Positions 10,290 through 61,690 of a stretch of 64,000 bases of DNA are shown in pieces. Position numbers and translations under genes: made by a program. Source of the DNA: Sitta carolinensis (lineage: Eukaryota > Chordata > Aves > Passeriformes > Sittidae); contig CM063309.1 of assembly GCA_032173965.1 (NCBI GenBank), positions 3,028,779 through 3,092,778 on the forward strand. Direction: 5' to 3'. The notes beneath the pieces were generated by a model. The model was not told the DNA's origin, did not search any database, and saw only the letters and a program-made list of their open reading frames with translations. How positions within the stretch are numbered: the stretch's first letter is position 1; each line of letters opens with the position of its first letter.

Positions 10290-11880
10290 ATACACCGGTT
10301 TTTCCGCGCACCTCCGCTTTCCCCGCACACACATTTTTTTCCAACCCCAACCCGCCGCAAATACAATTTTTTCTGAACCAACCCCGCCGCAAACACAACA
10401 TTCTTTTCTCACCCGACACAACATTTTTTTTTCCTGAACCAACCCCGCCGCCGCCAACACATTTTTTTTTGTGACCTCGCCGCCGCTCTCCCCGCACACA
10501 CAGCATTTTTTTCCGAACCCACCAACTCCTCCGCCGCACACAGAATTTTTTTTTTAAACCCACCAACCCCTCCTCAAACACAACATTTTTTCCTGAGCCC
10601 CAGCACCCCCTCTGCCGCCAATACAATATTTTTTTTCTGAACCCCACCAACCCCTCCGCAAACACATTTTTTTCTGAATCCCACCAACTCCGCCGCAAGC
10701 ACAACATTTTTTTCTGAACCCCACCACCTCCTCCGCCGCCAACACAACATTTTTTCCCGACCCCTCCGCACAAAGAATATTTTTCCCCCTGCCCCACCAA
10801 CTCCGCCGCGAACACAACATTTTTTTCTGAACCCCTCCGCCGCCAACACAACACTTTTTTCTGACCCCTCCGCAAACACAACATTTTTTTTCTGACCCAC
10901 ACCCCTCCGCAGCCAACACATTTTTTCCTGAACCCGCCACCCCCACCACCTTTTCCTCCGACCCCTCCGCACACAGAATATTTCCCCCAACCCACCACCC
11001 CCTCCTCAAATACAACATTTTTTCCTGAACCCCACCAACACAACCTTTTCCTCCGACCCCTCCGCACGCAGAATATTCCCCGGACCCACCACCCCCTCCG
11101 CGAACACAACCTTCTTTTTCTGACCCACCACCCCCTCCGCCAACACAACATTTTTTCCTGAACCCCACCAACCCCGCCACCCCCTCCGCCGCCGCCGACA
11201 CATTTTTTCCTGAACCCCACCACCCCTACCACCTTTTTCTCCGACCCCTCCGCACAAAGAATATTATTCCCCCTAACCCACCGCCCTCTCCGCGAACACA
11301 ACATTTTTTTCTGACCCACCAACTCCTCCTCGAACACATTTTTTCCTGAACCCCCCCCCCACCACCACCTTTTCCCCCGACCCCTCCGCACACAGAATAT
11401 CCCCTTAACCCACCACCTCCTCCGCAAACACAACATTTTCCCCCAACCCCTCCGCACACAGAATATTCCCCTAACCCACCAACTCTCCTCAAACACAACA
11501 TTTTCCCCAACCCCTCCGCACACAGAACATCCCCCCTAACCCACCACCCCCTCCTCAAACTCAACCTTTTCTTCTGACCCCTCCGCACACAGAACATCCC
11601 CCTAACCCACCACCCCCTCCTCAAACTGAACCTTTTTTTCTGACCCCTCCGCACACAGAACATCCCCCCTAACCCACCAACTCTCCTCCAACACAACATT
11701 TTCCCCCGACCCCTCCGCACACAGAAAACCCCCCTAACCCACCACCCCCTCCTCAAACTCACCCTTTTCTTCTGACCCACCACCCCCTCCTCGAACACAC
11801 TTTTCCTTGACCCCCCCCCCCACCTTTCCCCCCGACCCCTCGGCACAGGGAACATCCTTCCCCCCCCCAAACCCACCTCT
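10290..11880. repeat. 50-60 bp minisatellite abutting the HOXC8 start
   Basis: About 28 copies of a unit made of ACCCCTCCGCACACAGAATA, CCCCTAACCCACCACCCCCT and CAAACACAACATTTTTTCC segments. The copies become regular toward the gene. The final degenerate copy, with GACCCCTCGGCACAGGGAAC, ends about 70 bp before the HOXC8 ATG. The array therefore occupies the place where the HOXC8 promoter and 5' UTR normally sit. Gly/Cys/Val-rich minus-strand frames up to 416 residues are artefacts of it. Confidence 0.92.
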
Positions 11881-11925: not shown

Positions 11926-12355
11926 ATGAGCTCCTACTTCGTGAACCCGCTCTTCTCCAAGTACAAAGGCGGCGACTCTCTGGAGCCCGCGTACTACGAC
12001 TGCCGCTTCCCGCAGAGCCGCGGCCACGCCGTGCTCTACCCGGGCGCCGCTCCCTCCTTCCAGCACCCTTCGCATCACGTCCAGGATTTCTTCCACCCCA
12101 GCTCGCAGCCTCTGGCCAACTCGGGCTACCAGCAGAACTCGCCGTGCGCCCTCGCTTGCCACGGCGACGCCTCCAAGTTCTACGGGTACGAGGCGCTGCC
12201 GCGGCCACCGCTCTACGGGCAGCAGGAGCCGCCGGGCGCGCCCTACGGCGACTGCAAGGGCCAGGGACCGAGCCCGCCGGCCGAGGGGCAACAAGGGGCG
12301 CCCCTGGGCCAGGGAGGCTCGCCCGGCCTCATGTTCCCCTGGATGCGGCCGCACG
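11926..12355 (+). CDS. HOXC8: HOXC8 exon 1 (N-terminal region to the FPWM hexapeptide)
   Basis: This encodes residues 1-143 of the homeodomain transcription factor HOXC8, a nuclear DNA-binding regulator of thoracic axial identity. The ATG at 11926 begins MSSYFVNPLFSKYK, the conserved paralogue-group-8 N terminus. The in-frame GTG at 11911 is not a start. HVQDFF and DASKFYGYEALP separate HOXC8 from HOXB8 and HOXD8. The PBX-binding hexapeptide region LMFPWMRPH lies at the 3' end (about 12328-12354). The exon ends in phase 1 at CACG before a GTGAGT donor. Its length matches the usual exon 1 (about 143 codons). Compared with mammalian HOXC8 the middle is enriched in Pro, Gly and Ala and its codons are very GC-rich, unlike the surrounding DNA. 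The frame is intact. The last about 30 bp are repeated about 20 times in the intron that follows. Confidence 0.96.
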
Positions 12356-12361
12356 GTGAGT
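12356..12361 (+). promoter_or_regulatory. HOXC8: HOXC8 intron 1 splice donor
   Basis: A GTGAGT consensus donor directly after CGGCCGCACG. The same donor with the same flanks is duplicated at 12637 and 13022 inside the intron, and a variant occurs at 14552. Confidence 0.9.
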
Positions 12362-12369
12362 GACCGCGG

Positions 12370-15300
12370 CACTATTGGGGTTTATGGGGAATTTTGGGGG
12401 ATTTTATTGGGGTTTTTGGGGGTTATTTGGGGTTAGTTGGGGGTTTGGGGTTGGTCTCAGTGCCTTGCTCAGCCTCATGTTCCCCTGGATCTGGCAGCAT
12501 GGGGAGTGACTGGGGTTTATTGGGGTTTTATTGGGATTTATTGGGATTTTTTTAGTGATTTTTCGGGGTTATTTGGGGTTTGGGGTTGGTCTCAGTGTCT
12601 TGCTCAGCCTCGTGTTCCCCTGGATGCGGCCGCACGGTGAGTGACCGCGGGACTATTGGGGTTTATGGGGAATTTTGGGGGATTTTATTGGGGTTTTTTT
12701 CGGGGTTTTATTGGGGTTTATTGGGGTTTTATTGGGATTTTTGGGGGTTTTATTGGGGTTTATTGGGGTTTTATTGGGATTTTTGGGGGTTTTATTGGGA
12801 TTTTTGGGGGTTATTTGGGGTTAGTTGGGGGTTTGGGGTTGGTCTCAGTGCCTTGCTCAGCCTCATGTTCCCTGGATCTGGCAGCATGGGGAGTGACTGG
12901 GGTTTATTGGGGTTTTATTGGGATTTATTGGGATTTTTAGTGATTTTTCGGGGTTATTTGGGGTTTGGGGTTGGTCTCAGTGTCTTGCTCAGCCTCGTGT
13001 TCCCCTGGATGCGGCCGCACGGTGAGTGACCGCGGGACTATTGGGTTTATGGGGAATTTTGGGGATTTTATTGGGGTTTTTCGGGGTTTATTGGGGTTTA
13101 TTGGGGTTTTATTGGGATTTTTGGGGTTTTATTGGGTTTATGGGGTTTTATTGGGATTTTTGGGGGTTTTATTGGGGTTTATTGGGGTTTTATTGGGATT
13201 TTTGGGGTTTTATTGTGATTTTTAGTGATTTTTCGGGGTTTAGTTGGGGTTTGGGGTTGGTCTCAGTGCCTTGCTCAGCCTCCTCTTCCCCTGGATGCGG
13301 CAGCATGGGAGTGACCCGGGTTATATTGGGATTTATTGGGAATTTTTTGGGATTTTATTGGGATTTTTGGGGGTTATTTGGGGTTAGTTGGGGTTTGGGG
13401 TTGGTCTCAGTGTCTGCTCAGCCCCTCTTCCCTGGATGCGGCCGCACGGGGATGTGACCGGCGGAGGGTTGGGATTTTTTGGGGTTTTATTGGGATTTTT
13501 TGGGGTTTTATTGGGGTTTATTGGGGTTTATTGGGATTTTTTGGGGAATTTTTAGGGTTAGTTGGGGTTTGGGGTTGGTCTCAGTGTCTTGCTCAGCCCC
13601 GTGTTCCCCTGGATGCGGCAGCATGGGGAGTGACTGGGTTTTACTGGGAATTTTTTTGGATTTTATTGGGATTTTTGGGGGTTATTTGGGGTTAGTTGGG
13701 GGTTTGGGGTTGGTCTCAGTGTCTTGCTCAGCCCCGTGTTCCCCTGGATCCGGCCAGCATGGGGAGTGTGACTGGGGTTTATTGGGATTTTTGGGGGTTT
13801 TTATTGTGATTTTTTAGTGATTTTTCGGGGTTAGTTGGGGTTTGGGGTTGGTCTCAGTGTCTTGCTCAGCCTCGTGTTCCCCTGGATCCGGCAGCATGGG
13901 GAGTGACTGGGGTTTTACTGGGAATTTTTTGGGATTTTATTGGGATTTTTGGGGGTTATTGGGGTTATTTGGGTTTGGGGTTGGTCTCAGTGCTTTGTCC
14001 GGCCTCATGTTCCCCTGGATGCGGCCGCACGGGGAGTGACCGCCGGAGTATTGGGGGGGGGGGGGTGTTGTTGGGGTTTTATTGGGATTTTGGGGGGGGA
14101 TTATTGGGATTTTTTGGGAATTTTTGGGGAAATTTTGGGGATTTTTTGGGGTTATTTGGGGTTAGTTGGGGTTTGGGGTCGCTCTCAGTGTCTTGCTCAG
14201 CCCCCTGTTCCCCTGGATGCGGCAGCATGGGCAGTGACCGGGGTTTTATTGGGTTTTATTGGGATTTATTGAGATTTTATTGGGATTTTTTGGGGAATTT
14301 TTAGGGTTAGTTGGGGGTTGGGGTTGGTCTCAGTGTCTTGCTCAGCCCCGTGTTCCCCTGGATCCGGCAGCATGGGCAGTGACTGCCGGATTGGTGGGGG
14401 GTTTGGGGGGGTTTGTTGGGATTTTTGGGGGTTTTATTGGGGTTTATTGGGATTTATTGGGATTTTTTGGGGAATTTTTAGGGTTAGTTGGGGTTTGGGG
14501 TTGCTCTCAGTGCCTTGCTCAATCCCGTGTTCCCCTGGATGCGGCCATATAGTGAGTGAGAGGAACAGTTAGGGGGGTGGTGTTCCTGGGATTTTATTGG
14601 GATTTATTGGGGTTTATTGGGATTTTATTGTGATTTTTGGGGATTTTATTGGGATTTTATTGTGATTTTTTAGTGATTTTTGGGGGTTAGTTGGGGTTTG
14701 GGGTTGGTCTCAGTGCTTTGTCCGGCCTCATGTTCCCCTGGATGCGGCAGCATGGGCAGTGACCGGGGTTATATTGGGATTTTTTTTGGATTTTATTGGC
14801 ATTTTATTGGGATTTTTTGGGGTTTTATTGGGATTTGTTTGTGATTTTTGGGGGTTAGTTGGGGTTTGGGGTTGGTCTCAGTGCTTTGTCCGGCCTCATG
14901 TTCCCCTGGATGCGGCCGCATGGGCAGTGACCGGGGAGCATTGGGATTTCATTGGGATTTATTGGGATTTTGGGGGGGTTTATTGGGATTTTTTTGTGAT
15001 TTTATTGGGATTTTATTGGGATTTTTGGGGGTTACTTGGGGTCTCGTTGAGGGTTTGGGGTTGCTCTCAGTGTCTTGCTCAGCCCCGTGTTCCCCTGGAT
15101 GTGGCAGCATGGGCAGTGACTGGGGTTTTATGGCATTTGATTGGGATTTTATTGGGGTTTATTGCGATTTATTGGGATTTTTTGGTGATTTTTTGGTGAT
15201 TTTTTGGGGTTATTTGGGATTTTGGGGTCGCTCTCAGTGCCTTGCTCAGCCTCCTCTTCCCTTGGATGTGGCTGCACGGGGAGTGAGGAATGGGCTGGGG

Positions 15301-15850
15301 GCGTTACTGGGATTTTATTGGCATTTTTTGTGATTTTATTGGGATTTTATTGGGATTTTATTGGGATTTATTGGGTTTTATTGGGATTTACTGGGATTTT
15401 TTTGGGGTTATTTGAGGGTTTGGGGTCGCTCTCAGTGCCTTGCCCAGGTTCATGTTTCCCTGGATGCAGCAGCATGGGAAGTGACTGGGGGGGTTATTGG
15501 CATTTTATTGGGATTTTATTGGGGTTTATTGGGATTTATTGGGATTTATTGTGATTTATGGTGATTTTTTGGGGTTTTTTTGGGTTTTGGGGTTTTTGGG
15601 GTCGCTCTCAGTGCCTTGCCCAGGTTCATGTTTCCCTGGATGCGGCCGCATGGGCAGTGACTGGGGGGTTATTGGCATTTTATTGGGATTTTATTGGCGT
15701 TTATTGGGATTTTATTAGGATTTATTGGGATTTATTGGGATTTATTGGGATTTTTTTGGGTTTTGGGGTTTTTGGGGTCGCTCTCAGTGCCTTGCCCAGG
15801 TTCATGTTTCCCTGGATGCGGCGGCATGGGATGTGAGGGGCGGTTATTGG
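12370..15850 (+). repeat. Array of about 20 exon-1-edge copies (FPWM segment plus donor) in the HOXC8 intron
   Basis: Each unit holds CAGTGCCTTGCTCAGCCTC, then a copy of the exon-1 end GTTCCCCTGGATGCGGC, then G/T-rich filler such as TTGGGGTTTTATTGGGATTT. Copies of the CCTGGAT core lie near 12484, 12619, 12871, 13007, 13289, 13432, 13608, 13745, 13883, 14015, 14215, 14357, 14536, 14740, 14908, 15097, 15264, 15460, 15637 and 15813. The spacing is about 130-280 bp. Two variant classes alternate at first: CCGCACGGTGAGTGACCGCGG-like, identical to the real exon border, and CAGCATGGGGAGTGACTGG. Copies drift with distance (TTCCCCTGG becomes TTTCCCTGG). Open frames repeating WSQCLAQP and SCSASCSPG are translations of this unit. 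Confidence 0.93.
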
Positions 15851-18590
15851 CATTTTATTGGCATTTGATTGGGATTTTATTGGGATTTATTGGGATTTTT
15901 AGGGTTTTATTGGGATTTATTGGGATTTTTTGTGATTTTTTGGTGAATTTTTGGGGTTTATTCGGGATTTTGGGGTTGATTTTGGTGCCCTGGCCAGGTT
16001 TGTGCTCCGCACGCTGAGAGAGCAGAGGGATTGGGGCGGGCATGGGTGATATTTTTATTAATTTTTGTCATTTATTGCGGGGTTTGGGGGTTTATTGTGG
16101 GTTTTTCTGGGATTTATTTGGGTTTATTTGGCTTTATTTGGTTTTTTTTGGGTTTTTTTTTGTTTTTTTCTGGGGTTTATTTGGGGTTTTTTTGTTTTAT
16201 TCTGAGGTTTATTTGGGTTTATTTGGTTTTTTCTGGGATTTATTTGGGTTTATTTGGCTTTATTTGGTTTTTTGGGGGTTTTTTTGGTTTTTTTTCTGAG
16301 GTTTATTTAGGTTTTTTTGGGTTTTTTCTGGGGTTTATTTGGGTTTTTTGGGGTTTTTCTGGGGTTTATTTGGGTTTATTTATGGTTTATTTGGTTTTTT
16401 TTTTTGGTTATTTGGGTTTATTTGCTTTTTTGGTTTTTTTTTTTTTTTTTTCTGGGGTTTATTTGGGTTTTTTTTGGGGTTTTCTGGGGTTTATTTGTTT
16501 TTCTTTATTTTCTGGGGTTTATTTGGGGTTTTGGTTTTTTTTTCTGGGATTTATTTGGGTTTATTTATGGTTTATTTGTTTTTTTTTTTGTTTTGTTTTG
16601 TTTTGTTATTTGGGGTTTATTTGGGTTTATTTGTTTTTTTTTTTTTAGGGGGTTTATTTATTGGTTTTTTTTTTGTTATTTGGGGTTTATTTGATTTTTT
16701 TTTATTTGGGGTTTATGAGAGCAGAGAGTTTTTGTTGTTTTTTTTTTTTGGGGGTCTTTGTTGCTATTTTTGTGAATTTTTATGATTTTTTTCTGTTTTT
16801 CTGGGATTTTTTTCGGATTTATTTTAGGTTTATTTTATTATTTTCGTTTTTTTTTTTACACCTTCCCCATCCCTGCGCTCCCCTGGATTCAAACAATGAG
16901 AGCAGGGAGGGATTTTTTGGGGTCTTTGTTGCTATTTTTGTGAATTTTTATGAATTTTTGTGATTTTTTGACCTTTTTTTTGCGCTTTTCTGGGTTTTAT
17001 TTTGGTTTTTTTTAGGGTTTATTTTATTATTTTCGGTTTTTTTGCACCTTCCCCATCCCCGCGCTCCCCTGGCCGTGACCCCGCCGCGGTTTATTCCGAT
17101 TTTTATGGGGTGTTTGCTGATTTATTTGCCGTTTTATTCGCTGATTTATTGGGGTTATTTGGGGTTAATTTGGGATTTTTTGGGGTTTTATTTTAATGTC
17201 TCGCCAGCCCCTGGATGCGCCCAGAGGGGGAGAGATTTTATCCGGGGCTTTGTGATTTATTTTTATTTTTTTGGGGCATTATTTTTAATTATTTGGGGTT
17301 TATTTGGGGTTTATTTAGGTTTTAATTGGGTTTTATTGGGGTTTATTGGGTTTTATTTGGTTTTAATTGGGTTTTATTGGGGTTTTATTGGGTTTTATTT
17401 CGTTTTAATTGGGTTTTTTTTGGGTTTTATTGGGGTTTTATTGGGTTTTATTTGGTTTTAATTGGGTTTTTTTTGGGTTTTATTGGGGTTTTATTGGGTT
17501 TACTGGGGTTTATTTGGGTTTTATTTGGGTTTTATTTAGGTTTTATTTGAGTTTTAATTGGGTTTATTGGGGTTTTATTGGGTTTTATTTGGTTTATTGG
17601 GGTTTTTATTCGGTTTTTATTGGGTTTATTGGGGTTTTATTTGGGTTTTATTTGGTTTATTGGGGTTTTATTCGGTTTTTATTGGGTTTATTGGGGTTTT
17701 ATTGGGGTTTTATTTGGGTTTTATCGGGGTTTTATTTGGTTTTAATTGGGTTTTATTGGGGTTTTATTGGGTTTACTGGGGTTTATTTGGTTTTATTTGG
17801 TGTTTATTTGGGTTTTATTTGGGTTTTTATTTAGGTTTTAATTGGTTTATTTGGGTTTTATTGGGGGTTTATTGGGGTTTATTGGGTTTTATTTGGGTTT
17901 TATTTGGGTTTTATCGGGGTTTTATTTGGTTTTATTGGGGTTTTATTGGGTTTACTGGGGTTTATTTGGTTTTATTTGGTGTTTATTTGGGTTTTATTTA
18001 GGTTTTAATTGGGTTTTATTGGGGTTTATTGGGTTTTACTTAGGTTTTAATTGGGTTTTATTTGGTTTATTGGGGTTTTATTGGGGTTTTATTGGGGTTT
18101 ATTTGGGTTTTATTTAGGTTTTATTTGGGTTTTAACTGGGTTTATTGGGGTTTTATTGGGGGTTTATTGGGGTTTAATTTGGGTTTTATTTGGGTTTTAA
18201 TTGGGTTTTATTTGGGTTTTAATTGGGTTTTATTTGGTGTATTGGGGTTTTATTTGGGTTTTATTTGGGTTTTATTTGGGTTTTAATTGGGTTTTATTTG
18301 GTTTATTGTGATTTTATTGGGGATTTTTTTTTGTGACTTTTTCTCTTTTTTTGTGATATTTTGGGGATTATTTTGTGGGTTTTTATTATTCTGATTTTTG
18401 GGGACTATTCTGGCTTTTTAAAATTATTTATTCTGGGTTTATTTGTGATTTTTTGGGTTTATTTGTGGTTTTTTTTTGTTTATTTGTTATTTTTTTGGGT
18501 TTATTTGTGACTTTTTGGGGTTTATTTAGTATTTTTGGGGTTTGTTTGGGATTTTTTGGGGTTTATTTGGGTTTTTGGGGTTGGTTTTAG
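15851..18590 (+). repeat. Intronic G/T minisatellite (GGGTTTTATTGGGGTTTATT)
   Basis: The + strand contains almost only G and T with regularly placed A: units TTTATTTGGG, then TTTTATTGGGG. Diverged relics of the exon-edge array survive near 15995, 16870, 17060 and 17205 (CTCCCCTGGATTC, CCCCTGGATGCGCC), so this zone probably grew from the same array after the exon segment was lost. Aromatic and Gly-rich frames here are artefacts. Confidence 0.88.
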
Positions 18591-20470
18591 TGCCTGGCCC
18601 AGGGTTGGGTTAGGGCCGATCCTGGTGAATTTTTGGGGTGATTTTGGCGGTTTTTGGTTAATTTTGGTGATTTTGGGTTAATTTGGGTTTTTTGGTGATT
18701 TTGGTGTTTTGGGGTTTTTTTGGGTTGATTTTGGTGTTTTTGGGGTTCTTTGGTTGGGTTGGGCTGTTCTGGTTTTTTTGGTGGATTTTGTGGGTTTTGG
18801 GTTTTTTGGGTTTGGTTTTGGTGATTTTGGGTTTTTGGGTGGTTTTGGGTATTTTGGGTATTTGGGGTGATTTTGGGGTTTGGGTTATTTTGGTTTTTGG
18901 GTGGTTTGGTATTTGGGTATTTTGGGGGTTTTTGGGGTTCTTTGGGTTGGGTTTGGGCTGTTCCTAGTGGTTTTTTGGGTTGATTTTGTGGGTTTTTGGG
19001 TTAATTTTGGGGTTTTTGGGGTTGATTTTGGGTTTTTTTTGGATTGGTTTTGGGTATTTTGGGTGTGTTTTTGGGTTATTTTGGGGTTGTTCTTGGGTTG
19101 GGTTTGGGCTGTTCCTAGTGGTTTTTTGTTGGTTGTGGTTGGATTTTGTGGGTTTTTGGGTTATTTTGGTGGTTTGGTTTTGGGTATTTTTTGGGTTGGG
19201 TTTGGGCTGTTCCTGGTGGATTTTTGGGTTGGTTTGTGGTGTTTTGTTTTTTGGGTGTTTTGAGGTTTTTGGGGGTTGGGTGTTGGGGAATTTTTGGGTT
19301 GGGTTGGTTTAGGTTTTTTTTGGGTTTTGGTATTTGGTGGTTTGTTTTTGGGTGCTTTTGGGGTTGGTTTTGGTGTTTTTGGGGTTGGATTTGGGGTTAT
19401 TTGTGTGATTTTGGTGCTTTCCGGGTTCAGTTTGAGATTATTTTGGTGTTTTGGGGTTGGGTTTGGGGTTATTTCGGTGGGGTTTGGGTTATTTGGTGGG
19501 TTTGGGGTTATTTTGGTGTTTTTTTGGGGTTGGTTTTGGTGTTTTCAGCGTTGATTTTGGAGGGTTTTGGGTTGGATTTGGGGTTGGTTGTGTGATTTTG
19601 GTGCTTTTTGGGTTGAGTTTTGGGTTATTTTGGTGGTTTTAGGTTATTTTTTGGTGTTTTGGGGTCGGTTTTGGGGGTTATTTGGTGGTTTTTGGGTTAT
19701 TTTGATGTTTTTGGGGGTTGGTTTTGGTTTCGGGTTGATTTTGGTGTTCATGTGGTTGGGTTTGGGGTTATTTTGGTGTTTTTTGGTTTTGGTGTTTTGG
19801 GTCGGGTTTGGGGTTATTTTGGTGGTTTTGGGGTTTTTGGGTTGGTTTTTGGGGTTATTTTGGTGGGTTTTGGGGTTATTTTGGTGGTTTTGGTGTTTTT
19901 GGGTTGGTTTTTGAGTTATTTTGGTGTTTTGGGGGGTTGGTTTTGGGTTATTTTGGTGGTTTTGGGGGCTATTTTGGTGTTTTTGGGTTGGTTTTTGGGT
20001 TATTTTGGTGTTTTGGGGGGTTGGTTTTGGGCTTTATTTTGGTGGTTTTGGGGTCATTTTGGTGGGGTTTTTTGTGGTTTTTGGGTTATTTTGGTGGGTT
20101 TTTTGGGGTTTTTTGTGTTTTTCTGGGTTTGTGTTTTGGGTTATTTTGGTGTTTTTTTGGGTTATTTTGGTGGTTTCTTGGGTTATTTTGGTGGTTTTGG
20201 GTTGGTTTTTGGGTTATTTTTGGTGGGTTTTGGGGTTATTTTGGTGGTTTTGGGTTATTTTGGTGGTTTTGGTGGTTTTGGGTTGGTTTTTGGGTTATTT
20301 TGGTGGTTTTGGGGGTTGGTTTTGGGTTATTTTGGTGGGTTTTGGGGTTATTTTGGAGTTTTTTTTTGTTTTTTGGTGGTTTAGGGTTATTTTGGTGTTT
20401 TGGGGGTTGGGTTTGGGTTATTTTGGTGGGTTTTGGGGTTATTTTGGTGGTTTTGGGGTCATTTGGGCTC
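18591..20470 (+). repeat. Intronic G/T minisatellite (GGGTTATTTTGGTGGTTTTG)
   Basis: About 1.9 kb of near-pure G and T on the + strand. Units GGTTATTTTGGTGG and TTTTGGGTTGGTTTTTGGG recur every 35-55 bp. G runs are short (2-5) but continuous. It is transcribed as part of the HOXC8 intron, so the non-template strand and the nascent RNA are both G-rich. Confidence 0.88.
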
Positions 20471-20529
20471 TTCTGGGGGCTCTGGGCCATTTTTGGGGGC
20501 AGTTCGTGTGTGGTGGTGCCGAGTGCTGC

Positions 20530-20945
20530 GCAGAATTCCCACATTTTACCCCAAAATTCCCATTTTTTAACCCCAAATTCCAGCCTTTTCCCCAAATTCC
20601 AGCCTTTCTCCCCAAATCCCGGCCTCTTAGCCCCAAAATTCCGACCTTTTACCTCAATATTGTGACCTTTGATCCCAAATTCCGGCCTCTCCTGAAATTC
20701 AGACTTTTATCCAATGAGTTTATCCCCAAATTCCGAGGTTTTATCCCAAAATTCCGAGGTTTTATCCCCAAATTCCGAGGTTTTATCCCCAAATTCTGAG
20801 GGTTTATCCCAAATTCCGAGGGTTTATCCCCAAATTCCGAGGGTTTATCCCAAATTCTGAGGTTTTATCCCAAATTCCGAGGTTTTATCCCCAAATTCCG
20901 AGGTTTTATCCCAAATTCCGAGGTTTTATCCCAAATTCCATCACG
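20530..20945 (+). repeat. ~21 bp minisatellite (CCCAAATTCCGAGGTTTTAT)
   Basis: About 18 tandem copies of a 20-22 bp unit. The first copies are looser (CCCCAAATTCCAGCCTTT) and the later ones nearly identical. Intronic. Confidence 0.92.
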
Positions 20946-21074
20946 CCCATCCCTGCTTCCCCATAAATCTCTTTATATTCCTATAAAATTAATAATAACA
21001 GCAATAAAACCCTCGGGTCTCGCCCACCCCCTGCCAGAATTCCTTTTTTTTTACCCGGAACAAACTGAGGGGAT

Positions 21075-21432
21075 TCCCTGTAAAAATAATAAATACAATA
21101 AAATAAAAATAAAATAAAGTAAAATAAAATAAAATAAGAATAAAATAGAATGGAATAGAATAGAATAAAATAAAATAAAATAAAATAAAATAAAATAAAA
21201 TAAAATAAAAATAGAATAGAATAGAATAGAAATAAAAAATAAAAAAAAATAAAATAAAATAAAATAAAATAAAATAAGAATAAAATAGAATGGAATAGAA
21301 TAGAATAAAATAAAATAAAATAAATAAAATAAAATAAAAATAGAATAGAATAGAATAGAATAGAAATAAAAAATAAAAAAAATAAAATAAAATAAAATAA
21401 AATAAAATAAAATAAAATAAAAATAAAATCCA
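21075..21432 (+). repeat. AAAAT / AATAG pentanucleotide microsatellite
   Basis: Long AAAAT runs with interspersed GAATA variants. A segment of about 130 bp (GAATAAAATAGAATGGAATA and its flanks) appears twice, starting near 21138 and 21277, so the microsatellite has itself been duplicated. Confidence 0.92.
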
Positions 21433-21801
21433 AGCTGAAAGGGCAGTAAAAGTGAGAGAGCCCATTTTAAATTATTATTATTAATAATAATAATAATTTT
21501 TATTAGCGTGATTTCCTCTCGCCCCCACAGGGAGAATTCGCAGCAGGGAGGGGAGAAATTAAAAAAAAAAAAAAACTAAACTAAATCTGGGATTAAAAAT
21601 AAATAAAATAAAAAAGGAAATTCAAAACAAATCCGGGAGCTTCGAGCCTGGAAAAGGAGAGAGGGAAAAAAGAAAAAAAAGGGAAATAATTCAAATTACA
21701 GCGCAGGAAATTCAAACCAGGTGTGGGGCCAGCCCCGTGGCTTTTATTATTAAAAATAAAAATAATTCTTATTTTTATTATTTTACCCAAACCCCGCGGC
21801 C

Positions 21802-21851
<50 letters not shown>

Positions 21852-21904
21852 CAGAAAAATTCCAAGAATCCCCCAAAAAAATAAAACAGGGGAAAAAAAA
21901 AAAT
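21433..21904 (+). other. Intronic A-rich DNA with a poly-A run; no gene seen
   Basis: Short AT-rich stretches (AATTATTATTATTAATAATA near 21470) and an A run of about 40 nt at 21809-21850. No retroelement body or target-site duplication was recognised beside the poly-A run. Confidence 0.5.
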
Positions 21905-22165
21905 CGGAATTGTGGCTGCAGGCAGAGGAGGCTGCCAGAGGAAATCGCATTTTGATTTATTTATTGACTCTGCCCCGGCCGGATTTTCGCCCCAAATCAA
22001 TAAATCAATAAAATAAATTGATTTTCTCATTAGCGCCGGAGCCGCAGCTTCGGCTCGTTGAGGTTTTATTTTTTTTTTTCTCGTTTATTTCGATTTTTAA
22101 ATTATTTTTTTCCTGCCCTGATGTGGGATTTTGTGGCTGAGTTGTGAAGGGAAATTCGGATTTTT
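21905..22165 (+). promoter_or_regulatory. Candidate conserved HOXC8 intronic element
   Basis: A non-repetitive island inside an otherwise repetitive intron. It contains TTTTGATTTATTTATTGAC, a double ATCAATAAATCAATAAA, AAATTGATTTTCTCATTAG and a GC-rich core, GCGCCGGAGCCGCAGC. The ATCAATAAA, TTGATT and TTTAT words fit HOX/PBX-type binding sites. The function is inferred only from composition and from survival amid repeats. Confidence 0.45.
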
Positions 22166-22169
22166 GAGG

Positions 22170-23025
22170 AATTTGGGTGAAAATGGGGAATTTTTTTTTT
22201 TTTTCTTGTGCTTTCTGCGGGTTTTGGGGGGAGGGTGTGGATTTTGGGGGGAAAAGGGGAAAATGGGGGGAAAGGGGGAATGGGGGGGAAATGAGGGGAA
22301 AAAATGAGGGGGAAAAAAGGGTAAAAGTGGGTGAGAAAAGGGAGAAAAAGGGGGTGAAAAATGGGGAAAAAAAGGGGAAAAAAGGGGGGAAATCGGGTGA
22401 AAAATGGGTGAAAAAATGGGTGAAAAAAGGGAGAAAAAAATGGGTGAAAATTGGGTGAAAAATGGGTGAAAAAAGGGAGAAAAAATGGGTGAAAAATGGG
22501 GAAAATTGGGTGAAAAAATGGGTGAAAAATGGGTGAAAAAAGGGTGAAAATTGGGTGAAAATTGGGTGAAAAAAAGGGTAAAAAAGGGGTAAAAAATGGG
22601 GGAAAATGGGGAAAAAAGGGACAAAAAGGGTGAAAAAATGATGAAAAAGGGGTAAAAAAAGGGGTAAAAAATGGGGGAAAAAAAGGGGTAAAAAATGGGA
22701 AAAAGATGTAAAAAATGGGGAAAAATAGGTAAAAATGAGTAAAAAAATGGGTGAAAAAATGGAGAGAAAAAAAGGGATAAAAATGGGTAAAATTGGTAAA
22801 AAATGGTGAAAAATGGGGGGGGAAATGGGGAAAAAAGGGAGAAAAAAATGGGCGAAAAATGGGGAAAAATGGGCAAAAATGGGGAAAAATGGTTAAAAAT
22901 GAGGAAAAATGGTTAAAAATGAGGAAAAATGGGTAAAAATGGTTTAAAAATGAGGAAAATTGGTAAAAATGGTTAAAAAAAATGGGTAAAAAATGGGTAA
23001 AAATGGTTAAAAAAAAGGGAAAAAG
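22170..23025 (+). repeat. AAAAATGGGTG / GGGGAAAAAAGG minisatellite
   Basis: Units of 10-12 bp, mainly GGGTGAAAAAT and GGGGAAAAAT, shifting to GGTTAAAAATGAGGAAAAAT at the distal end. Purine-rich on the + strand, opposite in skew to the G/T arrays earlier in the same intron. Confidence 0.9.
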
Positions 23026-23089
23026 TTCTCGGGGTGAGAGCGAGGTGAACCCAGGGCCGAAAGGGTTAAAATGGGGAGGAAAAACGAAT

Positions 23090-23840
23090 TTGGGGGAAAT
23101 TGGGATTTTTATTGGGTATTTTGGGGTTTTGATCGATATTTGAATTATTTGGGGAATTGGGATTTTTATTGGGTTATTGGGGGGTTAATCGATAGTGGGA
23201 TCAATTGGAATTGGGATTTTTATTGGGGGATTTTTGGGGTTTTTAATCGATATTTGAATTATTTGGGGAATTGGGATTTTTATTGGGTTATTGGGGGGTT
23301 AATCGATAGTGGGATCAATTGGAATTGGGATTTTATTGGGGATTTTTGGGTTTTTAATCGATATTTGAATTATTTGGGAATTGGGATTTTTATTGGTTAT
23401 TGGGGGTTAATCGATAGTGGGATCAATTGGAATTGGGATTTTATTGGGGATTTTTGGGTTTTTAATCGATATTTGAATTATTTGGGGAATTGGGATTTTT
23501 ATTGGGTTATTGGGGGGTTAATCGATAGTGGGATCAATTGGAATTGGGATTTTTATTGGGGGATTTGGGGCTTTGATCGATATTAATTATTGGGAATTGG
23601 GATTTTATTGGGTTATTTTGGGTTTTTTTTTAATCGATATTTGAATTATTTGGGCAATTGGGATTTTTATTGGGTTATTTTGGGATTTTTTTTTAATCGA
23701 TATTTGAATTATTTGGGGAATTGGGATTTTTAGTGGGTTATTTTTTTGGGGGTTTTTAATCGATATTTGAATTATTGGGGGTTGGAATTCTTATTGGTTT
23801 ATTTGGGGATTTTTTATCGATATTTGGATTGTTTGGGGTT
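23090..23840 (+). repeat. ~110 bp minisatellite with paired ATCGAT sites
   Basis: Regular units of about 107-118 bp. Each has AATCGATATTTGAATTATTT followed by AATTGGGATTTTTATTGGG, then AATCGATAGTGGGATCAATT. ATCGATATTTGAATT recurs near 23132, 23247, 23356 and 23465. Distal copies (23580-23960) are irregular and lose the second half. The 171-residue frame with NWDFYW repeats is its translation. Confidence 0.93.
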
Positions 23841-24165
23841 GGGATTTTTGTAATCTTTGGGCTCTTTTGATCGATATTTGAATTATTTCGGGGGTTTTTC
23901 TGGTTGCGATTTTTGTTATTTTTGGTTTCTCGATCAATATTTGAATTATTTCCCGAGGTTTTTAGGCGGGGTTGGGGTTCGTTGCTGTTTATTGGAGTTT
24001 GGGGCTTTTTTGGGGTTTGGTTTTTTTAGGGATTTTTGGGGTTTTTTGGGTGATTTTTGGGTTGGTTTGGGCTTTTTGTGGCGATTTTTAATTTTGGTTT
24101 ATGTCTCAGGCGCTGCTCCTTTTCATCCCCCTCGAGTCTCATTCTTTACGGGGAAAATAAATGAA
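23841..24165 (+). other. Degenerate tail of the ~110 bp array; no gene seen
   Basis: Diverged copies with ATCGATATTTGAATTATT or ATCAATATTTGAATTATT persist to about 23955. G/T-rich DNA and a short complex stretch (TCAGGCGCTGCTCCTTTTCA near 24105) follow. No recognisable gene. Confidence 0.5.
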
Positions 24166-24169
24166 AAAT

Positions 24170-24310
24170 AAAAATAATAATAGTAATAATAGTGGCAAAA
24201 TAATAATAGTATAATAAGGTTATTATTATTGCTATTATTACTATTATTATCATTATGGCAATTATTATTATTATTACTATTATTATTACTATCGCTATTA
24301 TTATCACCAA
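24170..24310 (+). repeat. ATT/AAT trinucleotide microsatellite
   Basis: ATTATTATT and AATAATAAT runs with occasional C or G substitutions. Intronic. Confidence 0.9.
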
Positions 24311-24334
24311 ACAATTTTCATTTTCGACCCCTCC

Positions 24335-24660
24335 CACCCCGAACCCTTTATTTTATTTTAATTTTATTTCTATTTTTATTTCAATTCTATTTTAATTCGA
24401 TTTTCATTCTATTTCTATTCTATTTGCCTTCTATTTCCATTTAATTTAAATTGAATTTAATTTATTTTAATTTTAATTTTTATTTTTATTTTTATTTTAC
24501 ATTATTTTATTTTATTTTATTTTATTTTATTTATTTATTTTATTTATTTTATTTATTTTATTTTATTTTATTTTATTTTATTTTATTTTATTTTATTTTA
24601 TTTTATTTTATTTTATTTATTTTATTTTATTTTATTTTATTTTATTATTTTACATATATA
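24335..24660 (+). repeat. TTTTA pentanucleotide microsatellite
   Basis: Long near-perfect TTTTA runs from about 24495 to 24650, preceded by ATTTCTATTTTAATTC variants. Confidence 0.92.
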
Positions 24661-25095
24661 TTTGTAATTATTTTTTATTTTATATATATATTTATCTTTT
24701 TAAAGTATATATATTTTAATTTTATATATAATAAATTTTATATATATTAATTATATATGTATTTATTTTTAAATTTTATATATTAAATTTTATATATATT
24801 TAATTTTAATATATATTTTAATTATATATATTTTCATTATATATTTTTATATATATATTCTAATTTTATATATATTCTAAATTTATATATCTATAAATTT
24901 TATAGATATATTTAATTATATATATGTTTATATATATATAATTTTTTATATTTATTTTAAAATTTTATATATATATTAATTTAAAAATTTTTACACACAC
25001 ACACATTCATTTTAAAATTTTACACACTCACACATTTATTTTTAAACTTTTATACACCCATCTATATATATATATATATATATATATTTAATTTT
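24661..25095 (+). repeat. TATATA-rich AT minisatellite
   Basis: Units such as TTTTATATATATTTAATTTT with TA dinucleotide runs, a short CACACACACA stretch near 24993, and a final TA run at 25061-25087. This is the immediate upstream neighbour of the acceptor array. Confidence 0.9.
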
Positions 25096-25129
25096 TATTT
25101 AAAATTTATTCCCTTTCTCCCTTTTCCTA

Positions 25130-26040
25130 TTCAGCCCCGGGCCGGCGGAGCGGCCGCCAGACCTACAGCCGGTACCAGAATGAATTCAATTAATTTAATT
25201 TATTAATTTCTCTTTATTCCCAGCTCCGGGCCGGCGGAGCGGCCGCCACACCTACAGCCGGTACCAGAATGAATTTAATTAATTTAATTTATTCATTTCT
25301 GTTTATTCCCAGTCCCCGGGCCGGCGGAGCGGCAGCCAGACCTACAGCCGGTACCAAATAAATTAATTAATTTAATAATTTCTATTTTTCCTATTCAGCT
25401 CCGGGCCGGCGGAGCGGCCGCCACACCTACAGCCGGTACCAGACCCTGGAATTAGAGAAGGAATTCCTGTTCAACCAAAATAAATTGAATTTATTTTGTA
25501 TTTTTCTGCTCAGCCCGGGCCGGCGGAGCGGCCGCCAGACCTACAGCCGGTACCAGAATGAATTTAATTTATTTAATTTATTAATTTCTCTTTATTCCCA
25601 GCGCCTGGCCGGCGGAGCGGCCGCCAGACCTACAGCCGGTACCAAAATTAATTTAATTTATTAATTTCTGTTTATTCCCAGCGCCTGGCCGGCGGAGCGG
25701 CCGCCAGACCTACAGCCGGTACCAGACTCTGGAATTAGAGAAGGAATTCCTGTTCAACCAAAATAAATTGAATTTATTTTTTCCTTTTCCCTGTTCAGCC
25801 CCGGGCCGGCGGAGCGGCCGCCAGACCTACAGCCGGTACCAAAATAAATTTAATTTATTTTTTCCTTTTTTCTGCTCAGCCCGGGCCGGCGGAGCGGCCG
25901 CCAGACCTACAGCCGGTACCAAAATTAATTAAATTAATTTAATTTATTAATTTCTCTTTATTCCAGCTCCGGGTCGGCGGAGCGGCCGGCACACCTACAG
26001 CCGGTACCAAATTAATTTAATTTATTTTTCCCTTTTTCTG
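25130..26040 (+). repeat. Array of ten copies of the exon-2 edge (splice acceptor plus start of the homeobox)
   Basis: Ten copies precede the real exon. Each has a pyrimidine-rich tract ending in CAG, then the exon start CGGGCCGGCGGAGCGGCCGC, CAGACCTACAGCCGGTACCA (amino acids [12 protein letters not shown]), then an AATTTAATTTATTAATTTC spacer. Exon-like segments begin near 25135, 25224, 25313, 25399, 25514, 25602, 25682, 25799, 25880 and 25966. Spacing is about 80-115 bp. Copies at 25399 and 25682 extend further, through [11 protein letters not shown], to about 25474 and 25758. All copies read CCGGTACC where the functional exon reads CCGCTACC, so the array has been homogenised apart from the exon. 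Some copies keep a phase compatible with exon 1 and others are shifted by one base. Confidence 0.95.
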
Positions 26041-26045
26041 CTCAG

Positions 26046-26339
26046 GCCCCGGGCCGGCGGAGCGGCCGCCAGACCTACAGCCGCTACCAGACTCTGGAAT
26101 TAGAGAAGGAATTCCTGTTCAAACCCGTACCTGACGCGCAAACGGCGCATCGAGGTTTCGCACGCGCTGGGGCTCTCGGAGCGCCAGGTGAAGATTTGGT
26201 TCCAGAACCGGCGCATGAAGTGGAAGAAGGAGAACAACAAAGAGAAACTGCCCGGCAATTCCGGGAGGGCGAGAGGAACGAGGAGGAGAAGGACGAGGAG
26301 GAGGAGAAGACGAGGAGGACAAGGAGGAGGCAAGAGTGA
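26046..26339 (+). CDS. HOXC8: HOXC8 exon 2 (homeodomain), with frame-disrupting indels
   Basis: This encodes the HOXC8 DNA-binding homeodomain, about 26055-26235. Helix 1 is [10 protein letters not shown] and helix 3 is [17 protein letters not shown], with the invariant W, F, N and R residues of the recognition helix. The C terminus runs [10 protein letters not shown] and then an acidic run. GLSERQ has Ser where most HOX8 proteins have Thr. The reading frame is broken. An extra G sits at the acceptor (CAGGCCCCGGG against CAGCCCCGGG in array copies). An extra A lies in TTCAAACCCG at 26121-26123, between FLF and NPYLTRKRR. The Glu-rich tail (about 26271-26335) is in a different frame from the homeodomain, with TGA at 26337-26339. 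Exact stop and tail are therefore uncertain. Sequencing or assembly error is more likely than loss of an essential gene. Confidence 0.93.
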
Positions 26340-26344
26340 GCGCG

Positions 26345-27830
26345 CCGAGAGAATTTGGGATTTTCGGCACGGCTGTGAGCCGCCAGAAGAGCGGGAATAC
26401 GGAGATTTGAGTTTCTTTTGGGGTTGTGAGCCGCCCAAACCCACTGAAATCACGGCTTGTAATTTTATTTTATGGCTATGAGCCGCTAAAAGAGCGGGAA
26501 TACCGAGTTTTGAGTTTAATTTATGGTTATGAGCCGCTAAAAGAGCGGGAATACGAGTTTATTTTGGGGTTGTGAGCCGCCAAAACCCGCTGAAATCAGG
26601 ATTTGTTATTTTATTTTGAGGTTGTGAGCCGCCAAAACCCGCTGAAATCAGGATTTGTTATTTTATTTTGGGGTTGTGAGCCGCCAAAACCCGCTGAAAT
26701 CAGGATTTGTTATTTTATTTTGGGGTTGTGAGCCGCCAAAACCCGCTGAAATCAGGATTTGTTATTTTATTTTGGGGTTGTGAGCGCCAAAACCCGCTGA
26801 AATCAGGATTTGTTATTTTATTTTAGGTTTGAGCCGCTAAAAGAGCGGAAATCTGCATTTTGGAATTTTATTTTAGGGTTACGGGCCGCTAAAACCCACC
26901 GAAATCAGGATTTGTTATTTTATTTTGGGGTCGTGAGCCGCTAAAACAGCGGAAATACGGATTTCGGGATTTTATTTTATGGTTGTGAGCAGCCAAAAGA
27001 GCGAAAATACGGAGTTTTGATTTTATTTTGGGGTTATGAGCCGCTAAAACAGCGGAAATCTGGATTTCGGGATTTTATTTTATGGTTATGAGCCGCGAAA
27101 ACAGCGGAAATCTGGATTTGTAATTTTATTTTATGGTTATGAGCCGCCGAAACCCACTGAAATCAGGATTTGTTATTTATTTTGGGGTTGTGAGCCGCTA
27201 AAAGAACGGAAATCCAGAGTTTTAATTTTATTTTAGGGTTATGGGGCGCTAAAAGAGCGAAAATCCGGATTTTGGAATTTTATTTTAGGGTTGTGACCCT
27301 GCCAAAACAGCGGAAATCTGGATTTTTAGTTTTATTTTAGGGTTATGAGCCGCTAAAACAGCAATAAATCCGGACTTTCAATTTTATTTTAGGGTTGTGA
27401 GCCGCCAAAACTCACAGAAATCCGGATTTTTAATTTGACTTTGTGCTTGCGAGCCGCGAAAATCGCGATAAATCCGGATTCGGGGATTTTATTTTAGGGT
27501 TGTGAGCCGCCAAAACCCACAGAAATCGGGATTTTGGAATTTTATTTTATGATTGTGAGCCGGAAAACCGCGATAAACCCCTGATTTTTAATTTTATTTT
27601 ATGGTTATGGGCCGGGAAACGGCGATAAATCCGGAGTTTGGGATTTGTGAGCCACGAAACCCGCCAGAAACCGGGAATTTTCAAGTTTATTTTATGGGCC
27701 AGGAAAATCCCGAGAAATCGGGATTCTTTTATTTCGCGGGCCAGGAAAATCCCGAGAAACCGCGGGTTTAAAATTTGATTTTATGGTCCGGGAAAATCGC
27801 GAGAAATCGGGATTTTAATTCAGTTTTTTT
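26345..27830 (+). repeat. 52 bp minisatellite starting at the HOXC8 stop region
   Basis: About 28 copies of a 52 bp unit: GGTTGTGAGCCGCCAAAACC, CGCTGAAATCAGGATTTGTT, ATTTTATTTTGG. The 52 bp step is exact between 26641 and 26693. Variants carry TAAAAGAGCGGAAATACG. The TGAGCCGCC core resembles TGAGCGCGCC at the HOXC8 stop codon, suggesting that this array also derives from the exon edge. Degenerate copies (GGCCAGGAAAATCCCGAGAA) run to about 27810. Confidence 0.93.
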
Positions 27831-58408: not shown

Positions 58409-58843
58409 ATGAACTCGTACTTCCCGAACGCTGCCCTGCCTTGCCCGCTGGCCGCCGCCGGTAGCCAGGACGTGCTGCCCGCCGTGGGCTCGCTCGCCAC
58501 GGGCCCCTACGAGGCCGTGCGCGCCTTCCCGGGCTACGCGCAGAACCGCCTCTACTCCTCGCCATTCTACTCGCCCGGCCAGGACGTGTTCACCTCGGCT
58601 CGCCCGCCTTACGATTACACCTCGGGGGCTTTTTACGGCGACAAGGAGTTGAGCAGTTGTCGCCAAAGCGCGGCTCTCGGCGGGCCGCCGGCGGGGCCGC
58701 CCGGTAGCCACGGGGCGAGCGAGTTCGCGGCGGAAGCGGCGCGGGGAGCGCCGGGAGTTGAGCACAAAGGAGGAGGAGGAGGAGGAGGAGGAGGAGCAGG
58801 GATCCAGATCTACCGTGGATGCAGCGCGTGAACTCGCACAGCG
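58409..58843 (+). CDS. HOXC6: HOXC6 exon 1 (N-terminal region to the YPWM hexapeptide), with a one-base deletion
   Basis: This encodes the N terminus of HOXC6, a nuclear homeodomain transcription factor of anterior thoracic patterning. The ATG at 58409 begins MNSYF. QDVLP, AQNR-YS-PFYSP, PYDY-S--FY and SCRQ mark HOXC6 rather than A6 or B6. The 3' end encodes IQIY followed by the PWMQR-NSHS segment. Between them one C is missing: TACCGTGG at 58811-58818, where TAC CCG TGG is expected. The literal frame therefore runs into TGA at 58829. A GGA repeat (about 58770-58796) encodes nine Gly just before the hexapeptide, an expansion absent from mammalian HOXC6. Coding GC content is very high. Exon 2 with the homeobox is not in the window. 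The deletion is probably a sequencing error. Confidence 0.94.
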
Positions 58844-58849
58844 GTGAGT
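58844..58849 (+). promoter_or_regulatory. HOXC6: HOXC6 intron 1 splice donor
   Basis: GTGAGT after CACAGCG, in the position expected for group-6 HOX genes after NSHS. Confidence 0.88.
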
Positions 58850-58909
58850 TTGGGGGGGAAATTCAAAAAATGATGAAGGTGGGAAAGGGGGAGGGAAGGG
58901 GGGTGGTGG

Positions 58910-61690
58910 GGAGGGGGGGTGGGGGGGGTATTTTTATTTTTTGGGGTTTTTGGGTTTTTTAATTTTTTTTTTTTTTTGGGGGTTTAAATGGGGTTTAAAT
59001 GGGGTTTTTGCTTGGGTTTTTGGAGGTTAACTGATTTGTATTTTAGGGGGTTTGGTTTTTTTATATTTATTTTTTTTTTGGGGGTAAATGGGTTTTGTTG
59101 GGTTTTTGAGTTTATGATTTGTATTTTAGGTTTTTTGGGGTATTTTGGGGGGTTTTAAATTTTTTTAGATTTTGGGGTTTAAATGGGTAAATGGGTTTTT
59201 GCTTGGGTTTTTGGAGGTTAACTGATTTGTATTTTAGGGGGGTTTTTCTGCTTTTTTTTTATTATTTATTTCTATTTTGGGTTTTGGGGGTTAAAATGGG
59301 GTTTTTGCTTGGGTTTTTGGAGGTTTATTGATTTGTATTTTAGGGGTTTTTTGGGGTATTTTTGGGGGATTTTTAAAATTTTTTTTATTTTTTGGGGGGT
59401 TTAAATGGGGTTTAAATGGGGTTTTTGCTTGGGTTTTTGGAGGTTAACTGATTTGTATTTTAGGGGGGGTTTTCTGGTTTTTTTTATTATTTATTTTTAT
59501 TTTTTGGGGGTTAAAATGGGGTTTTTGCTTGGGTTTTTGGAGGTTTATTGATTTGTATTTTAGGGATTTTTTGGGGTATTTTTGGGGGATTTTTTAAAAT
59601 TTTTTTTATTTTTTTGGGGGTTTTGGGGGTTTAAATGGGGTTTAAATGGGGTTTTTTGCTTGAGTTTTTGGAGGTTTATTGATTTGTATTTTAGGGGGGT
59701 TTTTCTGGTTTTTTTTATTATTTATTTTTATTTTTTGGGGGTTAAAATGGGGTTTTTGCTTGGGTTTTTGGAGGTTTATTGATTTGGATTTTAGGGTTTT
59801 TTTGGGGGATTTTTTTAATTTTTTTTTAATTTTTTGGGGGTTTTTTGGGGGTTAAAATGGGGTTTTTGCTTGGGTTTTTGCAGGTTTATTGATTTGTATT
59901 TTAGGGTTTTTTTGGCGGATTTTTTGGGGATGTTTTTAATTTTTTTTTTTTTTTTGGGGGTTTTTTTTAGGGGTTTAAATGGGGTTTTTGCTTGGGTTTT
60001 TGGAGGTTTATTGATTTCTATTTTGGGGGGGTGTTCTGTTTTTTTAATTATTTTTCTAGATTTTTTGGGGTTTTTTTTGGGGGGTTTTAAAGGGGGTTTT
60101 TGCTTGGGTTTTTGCAGGTTTATTGATTTGTATTTAAGGGGTTATTTGGGGATTTTTTTAATTTTTTTTTTTTTTTTTGGGGGTTTTTTAGGGGTTAAAA
60201 TGGGGTTTTTGCATGGGTTTTTGGAGGTTTATTGATTTGTATTTTAGGGTTTTTTTGGGGTTTTTTTTTGGGAATTTTTTGGGGTTTTTTGGGATTTTTT
60301 TTGGGTTTTTTAGGGTTTAAATGGGTTTTTTTCGCTAGGTTTTTTGAGGTTTATTGACTTATATTTTAGGGGTTTTTAGGGGGGTTTTTTGGGGATTTTT
60401 TTGGATTTTTTTGGATTTTTTGGGGGTTTTTGGGGTTTTTTGGGGGTTTAAATGGGGTTTTTGCTTGGGTTTTTGGAGTTTTATTGATTTGTATTTTAGT
60501 TTTTTGGGGGATTTTTTTGGGTTTTTTGCGAGTTTAAGTGGGTTTTTTGCTTGTTTTTCCTGAGTTTTATTGACTTATATTTTAGGGTTTTTTTCGTGGT
60601 TTTTTGGGGATTTTTTTTTGGAATTTTTTTGGGGGTTTTTCAGGGTTTAAATGGGGTTTTTGCTTCGTTTTTTTGAGTTTTATTGACTTATATTTTAGGG
60701 GTTTTTTTTGAGCTTTATTTGGAATTTTTTGGGGGTTTTTGAATGGGTTTTGCTGGGTTTATATTTTTTGACTTTTATTGACCTATATTTTAGGGATTTT
60801 TTTGGATTTTTGGGGTTTTTTTGGGGGATTTAAATGGGTTTTCTGCTGGGTTTTGGGAGTTTTATTGACCCATATTTTAGGGTTTTTTGGGGGCTTATTT
60901 GTGATTTTTTTTTTGGAATTTTTTGGGGTTTTTGGGGGGGTTTAAATGGGTTTTTTACTTGGTTTTTTGGAGTGTTTTTGATCTATATTTTAGGGATTTT
61001 TTTGGAATTTTTTGGGGTGTTTAATGTTTTTTTTGCTGGTTTATTTTTTAGTGTTTTTGACCTATATTTTAGGGTTTTTTTGGGCCTTATTTAAGGATTC
61101 TTTTTTTATTTTTAAATGGCTTTTTGGTTGGGTTTTGGAGGTTTTATTGACCGATATTTTAGGGGGTTTTGGGGCCTTATTTACAGATTTTTTTTGGGGT
61201 TTAAATGGGGTTTTTCCTTGGTTTTGGAGGCTTTCTGAGCTGTTTCTTTTTTATTTTCTTTGGGCCTTGTTTAGGGATTCTTTTTGGGTTTTAAACGGGT
61301 TTTTTGCTTGGTTTTTGGACTTATTTTACCAATATTTTAGGGTTTTAAATGGGTTTTTTGCTTGGTTTTTGGAGTATTTATGAGCTGTTTTTTTGCTGAT
61401 TTTTGGGCCTTGTTTGGGGATTTTTATTTTATTTTTAAATGGGTTTTTTGCTTGTTTTTTGGAGTATTTATGAGCTGGGGTTTTAGGTTTTTTGGGGCCT
61501 TGTTTAGGGATTTTTTTTTTGTTTTGAATGGGTTTTTTGCTTGGTTTTTGGAGGGGTTTTATCTCTTTTTTATTATTATTTTGGGGCCTTGTTTAGGGAT
61601 TTTTGCTTATTTTTTTGCTTTTTTTTTTGCTTATTTTTGGGAATATTTTAATGGATTTTTCGCTTATTTTTTGTCCTTTTTTTTGCCTTT
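58910..61690 (+). repeat. 100-130 bp intronic minisatellite of HOXC6
   Basis: About 24 copies of TTTAAATGGGGTTTTTGCTT, GGGTTTTTGGAGGTTTATTG, ATTTGTATTTTAGGGGTTTT and T-rich filler. The G/T-rich + strand has the same skew as the HOXC8 intron, but the monomer is unrelated to exon 1. Each unit ends in TATTTTAG, an acceptor-like word. Later copies (from about 60580) lose order. FAWFLE and GFLLGFLEVY frames are its translation. Confidence 0.92.

Follow-up and report, generated by a model that had tools for sequence, protein, structure and literature searches.

Tandem copies of both exon borders within intron 1 of HOXC8 in Sitta carolinensis

How does the splicing machinery pick the right border of an exon among near-identical decoys, and how do such decoys come to fill an intron? 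A stretch of 64,000 bases from Sitta carolinensis (GCA_032173965.1, contig CM063309.1), hereafter the window, offers a natural test of the first question and raises the second. Within it, a conserved gene of the body plan apparently tolerates thirty copies of its exon edges in a single intron. An earlier note on this DNA had described ten tandem copies of the acceptor and start of HOXC8 exon 2 in front of that exon. The array is indeed there, at about 25095–26045, and the description was incomplete: a second array, with 20 copies of the end of exon 1, had been overlooked. At either end of HOXC8 intron 1 stands an array built from the adjoining exon border.

The locus and its genes

The window contains no N. 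On its forward strand the coding part of HOXC8 exon 1 (11926–12355) extends from the ATG to the donor, stays open over all of its 430 nt and ends in phase 1. It is followed by the 5' splice site ACG/GTGAGT (12356–12361), intron 1 (12356–26045) and exon 2 (26046–26339), the only one of eleven similar starts that continues into the rest of the homeodomain. A HOXC6-like exon 1 (58409–58843) follows further downstream on this strand. We take these genes to be HOXC8 and HOXC6 on the basis of protein similarity and gene order. Within the comparison made, the earlier assignment to HOXC8 holds: of the two group 8 proteins considered, exon 1 is 68% identical to human HOXC8 over 148 aa versus 53% to HOXB8 over 149 aa, and the HOXC6-like exon stands where it fits this order. 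That exon shares 43% identity over 156 columns with HOXC6, the group 6 protein used for comparison.

The later homeodomain part of HOXC8 exon 2 is recognized by Pfam with 60 bits, and over 45 residues of this part and what comes after it the protein departs from human HOXC8 at two positions, both conservative (T>S and D>E). Neither HOXC8 exon 1 nor the HOXC6-like piece had a Pfam hit at an E-value of 0.01, and the same holds for the opening 25 residues of exon 2; no Rfam match was obtained at gathering scores. The region is rich in tandem repeats, which cover 67% of the window, 81% of intron 1 (TRF), 38% of exon 2 and none of exon 1; a similar setting has been described for the small chromosomes of chicken.

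Copies of the exon 2 border

The acceptor-side array consists of acceptor copies and AT-rich spacers on the forward strand, begins at approximately 25095 and ends at the true acceptor at 26045. Its ten copies of the exon 2 start lie at 25135–25178 (c01), 25224–25267 (c02), 25313–25356 (c03), 25399–25476 (c04), 25514–25556 (c05), 25602–25644 (c06), 25682–25759 (c07), 25799–25841 (c08), 25880–25921 (c09) and 25967–26009 (c10). The last bases of the preceding AG dinucleotides are 25134, 25223, 25312, 25398, 25513, 25601, 25681, 25798, 25879 and 25966, compared to 26045 for exon 2 itself, giving unit lengths of 79–117 bp from acceptor to acceptor. The word ACCTACAGCC occurs 11 times on the forward strand of the window, always within 25161–26082, that is, in the ten copies and the exon. 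The base difference that had been reported between copies and exon is also found: CCGGTACC occurs ten times, once in each acceptor-side copy, and CCGCTACC a single time, at 26081 in exon 2. The arginine codon is accordingly CGG in all ten copies versus CGC in the exon.

Each copy had been credited with a pyrimidine tract, a CAG and coding capacity for a peptide of 12 residues. The pyrimidine-rich stretch and the AG are present at all eleven sites, with 75–95% pyrimidine in the 20 nt preceding the ten copies, so that the count of eleven tandem 3' splice sites is correct at the level of predicted sites. The peptide is exact in only six of the ten copies; Q>H is found in c02, c04 and c10, and R>S in c03. 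Seven copies continue the frame of exon 1, while c03, c05 and c09 are off by one base, and exon 2 as assembled is out of frame with exon 1 as well, neither of which had been recognized before. The retention of AG in all ten copies is not read as a sign of selection, since divergence on the exon side is low in any case.

Two long copies, c04 and c07, run through a further stretch of 11 residues, as had been claimed, and extend through TTCAACC. When 36 bp between two ACCA words are removed from c07, its identity is 92.6% with c08, 85.2% with c06 and 84.0% with c10. Some short units, of which c06, c08 and c10 were compared, can be derived from long units by a 36-bp loss; the long form would then have come first.

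Are these copies evolving together? Among the ten, the exon-like parts are 90.9% similar and the 40 bp upstream of them 67.9%. A CTCC lead is linked to Q>H in three non-neighbouring copies, and two neighbours have CGCCTGG in common. On the intron side, c01 is 52.6% similar to the inner copies, which reach 70.9% among themselves, and exon 2 with 73.9% is no outlier. On the exon side the similarity to the inner copies amounts to 94.1% for exon 2 and 96.9% for c01, compared to 95.8% within the inner group. The proposal that the array was homogenised is plausible in so far as linked variants are common to several copies and the copy at the left edge is odd on its intron side. The CGG/CGC difference, however, is a single base, which taken alone fits homogenisation no better than a founder change or a mutation that struck the exon afterwards, and exon 2 does not stand apart on the intron side. 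That the units are not simple assembly copies of the exon is supported by this structured variation.

Copies of the exon 1 border

On the opposite side of the intron, the end of exon 1 and its donor region recur as 20 partial copies in tandem at approximately 12448–15840 on the forward strand, spaced by 132–286 bp with G/T-rich spacers. The copies span the last 30 or so bases of exon 1. All 20 carry the adjoining splice region, as do all ten acceptor copies. At the aligned donor position GT is present in three copies only, with GG in the other 17. GTGAGT is kept in d02 (12637–12642) and d04 (13022–13027), where the 9-nt site is that of the true donor, and in d13 (14552–14557), where it follows ATA and is weaker. 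The 17 copies without GT all have the form CA[CT]GGG, which fits one early change that was copied along; selection against decoy donors is not claimed, as this common form is compatible with such a single event.

The roughly 30 bp in front of the copies are 88.7% alike among them versus 41.7% to the exon. Because this segment is common to the copies, the 20 units probably go back to one founder junction. Two of them appear to have a different history: over 60 intron bases downstream, an ungapped comparison with those after exon 1 gives 59/60 matches for d02 and 43/60 for d04, and for this reason both look like later copies of the exon border itself. A gradient of age along the array was not found (Spearman −0.31, p 0.19). 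Near 15990 there is possibly a 21st, badly worn copy, which was left out of the count.

Similarity beyond chance

To what extent could such matches arise in any repetitive intron? We repeated the published screen for exon stuttering with blastn-short, matches of at least 20 nt and a threshold of 42.1 bits. In intron 1, 16 matches reach this threshold, namely all ten exon 2 copies (50–133 bits) and six exon 1 copies (42–68 bits), one of these six being exactly at 42.1. Three of the remaining exon 1 copies stay below the threshold and 11 lack any match of 20 nt. No shuffled intron out of 200 attains 42.1 bits: the top score in 100 mononucleotide shuffles is 32.2 bits, and 100 dinucleotide shuffles give no match of at least 20 nt. 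The 19 matches of at least 20 nt to HOXC8 exons are all direct and all inside intron 1, and none occurs in three other non-exon regions of the window. Even with any of three exons as query and no limit on length, the best among the matches listed for these three regions has 30.2 bits over 15 nt. Chance similarity is ruled out by the shuffles together with the other non-exon regions.

Of the six exon 1 matches, three end at the border, two stop 2 nt short and one 6 nt short. For exon 2, two of the ten begin at the first exon base, one at the second and seven 2–6 bases inward, the frequent inward start being due to variable leads. When the exons are compared with one another, a GAG-rich run in HOXC6 exon 1 resembles the tail of exon 2, which is GAG-rich as well (27 nt, 92.6%); this likeness is one of low-complexity coding sequence and lies outside the arrays. 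Stuttering of HOXC6 exon 1 into its own intron (58844–64000) was not detected, with no match of at least 20 nt and none at an E-value of 0.01.

Base accuracy of the assembly

The reading frame of exon 2 gives reason for caution. As assembled, it is open in the first frame up to EKEFLF, moves to the next frame for the stretch that follows, and has its acidic tail back in the first frame, judged by likeness to the reference acidic tail. The changes fall in the acceptor lead, which is one base too long for the frame of exon 1, near 26118–26120, where there is an extra base, and somewhere before the acidic tail. In HOXC6 exon 1 the hexapeptide reads TACCGTGG, one base short of YPW. Short single-base runs are found at or near the first two faults of exon 2 and the fault of HOXC6; HOXC8 exon 1 is free of frame faults. 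The faults in exon 2 and HOXC6 are likely consensus errors. Single bases and the exact copy number are uncertain as a consequence, which does not put the arrays themselves in doubt: these we trust in spite of the faults, because the variants among copies are linked and shared.

Predicted splicing outcomes

What would the splicing machinery make of thirty extra borders? Scored copy by copy, as the earlier note had suggested, the ten acceptor copies obtain 9.5–15.1 on a rough matrix. On the same matrix the acceptor of exon 2 has 16.4, the top value among all positions from 12400 to 26100, and an acceptor outside the arrays, at 16648, has 15.7. The margin by which exon 2 ranks first is not to be trusted, as it leans on the G after the AG, which may be the surplus base. 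On the donor side, the true site has a rough score of 9.9, with which d02 and d04 tie.

Read-through past the true donor would lead to an immediate stop (HGE*). If exon 1 as assembled is joined to the acceptors, the predicted products measure 159–231 aa when one of the ten copies is used and 172 aa when exon 2 is. A whole homeodomain is present in none of the 11, in the case of exon 2 owing to its frame changes, and from each of the ten upstream acceptors a stop is reached before the rest of the homeodomain. Two further roles were considered and rejected. Recursive splicing is disfavoured by the C or T, not GT, that follows the AG in the ten copies, and the CCG/GTACC word of the copies scores merely 1.7 as a donor. 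As for micro-exons in the donor-side array, the AG nearest upstream of the exon-like part never scores above 6.4, with 3.2 ahead of the two strong donor copies.

Exon stuttering and related systems

The closest parallel is exon stuttering in chicken, described by Hron et al. 2026 (PMC12954441) for 115 genes and 236 introns. There, dot chromosomes harbour 190 of the 236 introns and other microchromosomes a further 10, with 1–44 copies and exon parts of 20–187 bp; a strong length variation between individuals is given as a trait of the phenomenon, and chromosomes 22, 25 and 33 as carrying slightly more length-variable introns. The anatomy is shared: partial copies of exon edges with donor or acceptor, direct, tandem and imperfect, confined to the adjoining intron, and an intron full of simple repeats (here 81% by TRF). 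The copy numbers of 20 and 10 at HOXC8 fall inside the published range of 1–44. What differs from that account is the HOX gene and the presence of arrays at both borders of one intron. The main text of PMC12954441 makes no mention of HOX, its gene list being in a supplement outside our search.

The chromosomal setting of the chicken counterpart also differs. The chicken HOXC cluster is assigned to chromosome 33 in PMC8022956, and according to PMC9974502 this chromosome shares some features of dot chromosomes, although it is not among the ten. As 190 of 236 stuttering introns in the published set are on dot chromosomes, this position counts against the fit.

An older counterpart are the mirages of amphioxus, reported in PMC3087553 for Adh3 and the globins BflGb6 and BflGb9. 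There the inner units are homogenised and the edge units are not, a behaviour partly echoed at HOXC8. In contrast, mirages have fewer units (6 and 3 in two BflGb6 haplotypes), other unit lengths (150–160 bp in BflGb6, 157 in BflGb9 and 10–72 in Adh3, compared to 79–117 and 132–286 at HOXC8) and belong to another animal group. The Adh3 data and RT-PCR on the globins suggested that regular splicing is undisturbed by them. In the same gene cluster as HOXC8, the chicken crest duplication (PMC8022956) is an intronic tandem duplication as well, located in HOXC10. It is, however, a single 197-bp duplication that involves a conserved element and no exon edge; its example demonstrates that HOXC expression can be altered by changes of this sort.

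Among the papers listed in a literature search joining HOXC8 with exon stuttering, none contained both, the stuttering terms led to PMC12954441 only, and those on mirages and related topics gave no account of the HOXC8 case, judged by titles and the starts of abstracts. The case is thus likely unreported. The phenomenon and its anatomy are already known; the HOX setting and the occurrence at both ends of one intron appear to be new.

Weighing the explanations

We consider it highly probable that the arrays represent exon stuttering that has affected HOXC8 intron 1 from both sides. Units straddling an exon-intron border would have been duplicated in tandem, the exon 1 edge and its donor spreading rightwards (20 copies) and the exon 2 edge and its acceptor leftwards (10 copies) within the intron; these directions of growth we infer. 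The units may then have multiplied, lost pieces and exchanged sequence in the manner of a minisatellite, while the exon would remain the end unit as the only one under coding selection. The copies would be passive and presumably leave with the intron by normal splicing. That the published description is matched by the pattern here speaks for this reading. Several points speak against it: exon 2 itself is 38% covered by tandem repeats, the published screen alone passes only six of the 20 exon 1 copies, and the frame changes in exon 2 together with the HOXC6 fault show that either base accuracy is poor or the genes are damaged.

Could the arrays instead have been made by the assembly, with noisy low-complexity reads stacked into false tandem copies? 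The surplus base in the exon 2 lead, the extra base near 26118–26120, the further change before the acidic tail and the base missing from TACCGTGG are what such reads might leave behind, all the more with single-base runs at or near three of these faults. This would not account for linked variants in non-neighbouring copies, for one class of unit length that fits the other minus a piece between two ACCA words, or for the segment in front of the donor copies that is so much more alike among them than to the exon; exon 1, which adjoins that array, is moreover intact. An artefact is therefore quite unlikely. The frame breaks of exon 2 could also be taken as marks of a decaying gene, the arrays then belonging to a HOXC8 pseudogene. 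With an exon 1 that is open over 430 nt, a later homeodomain with two conservative changes and 60 bits in Pfam, and a similar one-base fault in HOXC6 that points to base errors, we hold this to be extremely unlikely.

A different idea is that the copies are used, either as alternative acceptors, which would yield HOXC8 proteins cut before the homeodomain helices, or as decoys that slow or steer splicing. The kept AG, the pyrimidine content, the scores on the rough matrix and the seven copies in frame are compatible with use, and since the stop codon lies in exon 2, early stops may escape nonsense-mediated decay if this is the last exon. On the other hand, Q>H in three copies, R>S in one and a shifted frame in three are as expected without coding selection, GT is absent at the aligned place in 17 of 20 donor copies, and amphioxus mirages seem not to disturb splicing (PMC3087553). 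Judged from sequence, use of the copies appears improbable. It is very unlikely, too, that the ten acceptor copies would give rise to decay-resistant HOXC8 messages that keep the hexapeptide and lack the homeodomain helices, with an array length that tunes dose and varies between individuals. Stuttering with a passive minisatellite that would be removed with the intron is most likely, as far as the letters alone can tell. This outcome is not guaranteed, because on the rough score d02 and d04 equal the true donor, and high-scoring acceptors also occur beyond the arrays, as at 16648.

Possible causes and neighbouring repeats

The paired arrays allow a comparison that bears on the cause of stuttering. 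Quadruplexes, repair under replication stress and meiotic exchange are the possible causes named in PMC12954441. The donor-side region (12357–16100) holds 26 G-quadruplex motifs and the acceptor-side region (25095–26045) none on either strand. As two arrays of one intron are opposite in quadruplex content, it is unlikely that quadruplexes inside the unit drive stuttering on their own. Microhomology and copy-to-copy exchange might be at work in either array. The locus makes a good test case: its arrays come as a pair, its donor and acceptor copies are unequally preserved, and the gene is a HOX gene.

Other repeats accompany the gene. A 52-bp unit is repeated about 24 times at 26374–27614, beginning some 35 bp past the HOXC8 stop codon (26337–26339), and probably fills the 3' untranslated region. 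ACTACCT, which we take to be a miR-196 seed match, occurs on the forward strand of the window only at 28739 and 29083, 2.4 and 2.7 kb after the stop; longer miR-196 complements are absent from the window. PMC8022956 places the conserved miR-196 site about 1.2 kb past the end of the HOXC8 coding sequence. In intron 1 of HOXC6, a unit of purely intronic sequence (tttgcttgggtttttggaggtt..tgatttgtattttag) was seen by eye to recur many times at 58980–60600, and no exon copies occur there. Upstream of HOXC8, tandem repeats at 10733–11825 reach to about 100 bp from the start codon.
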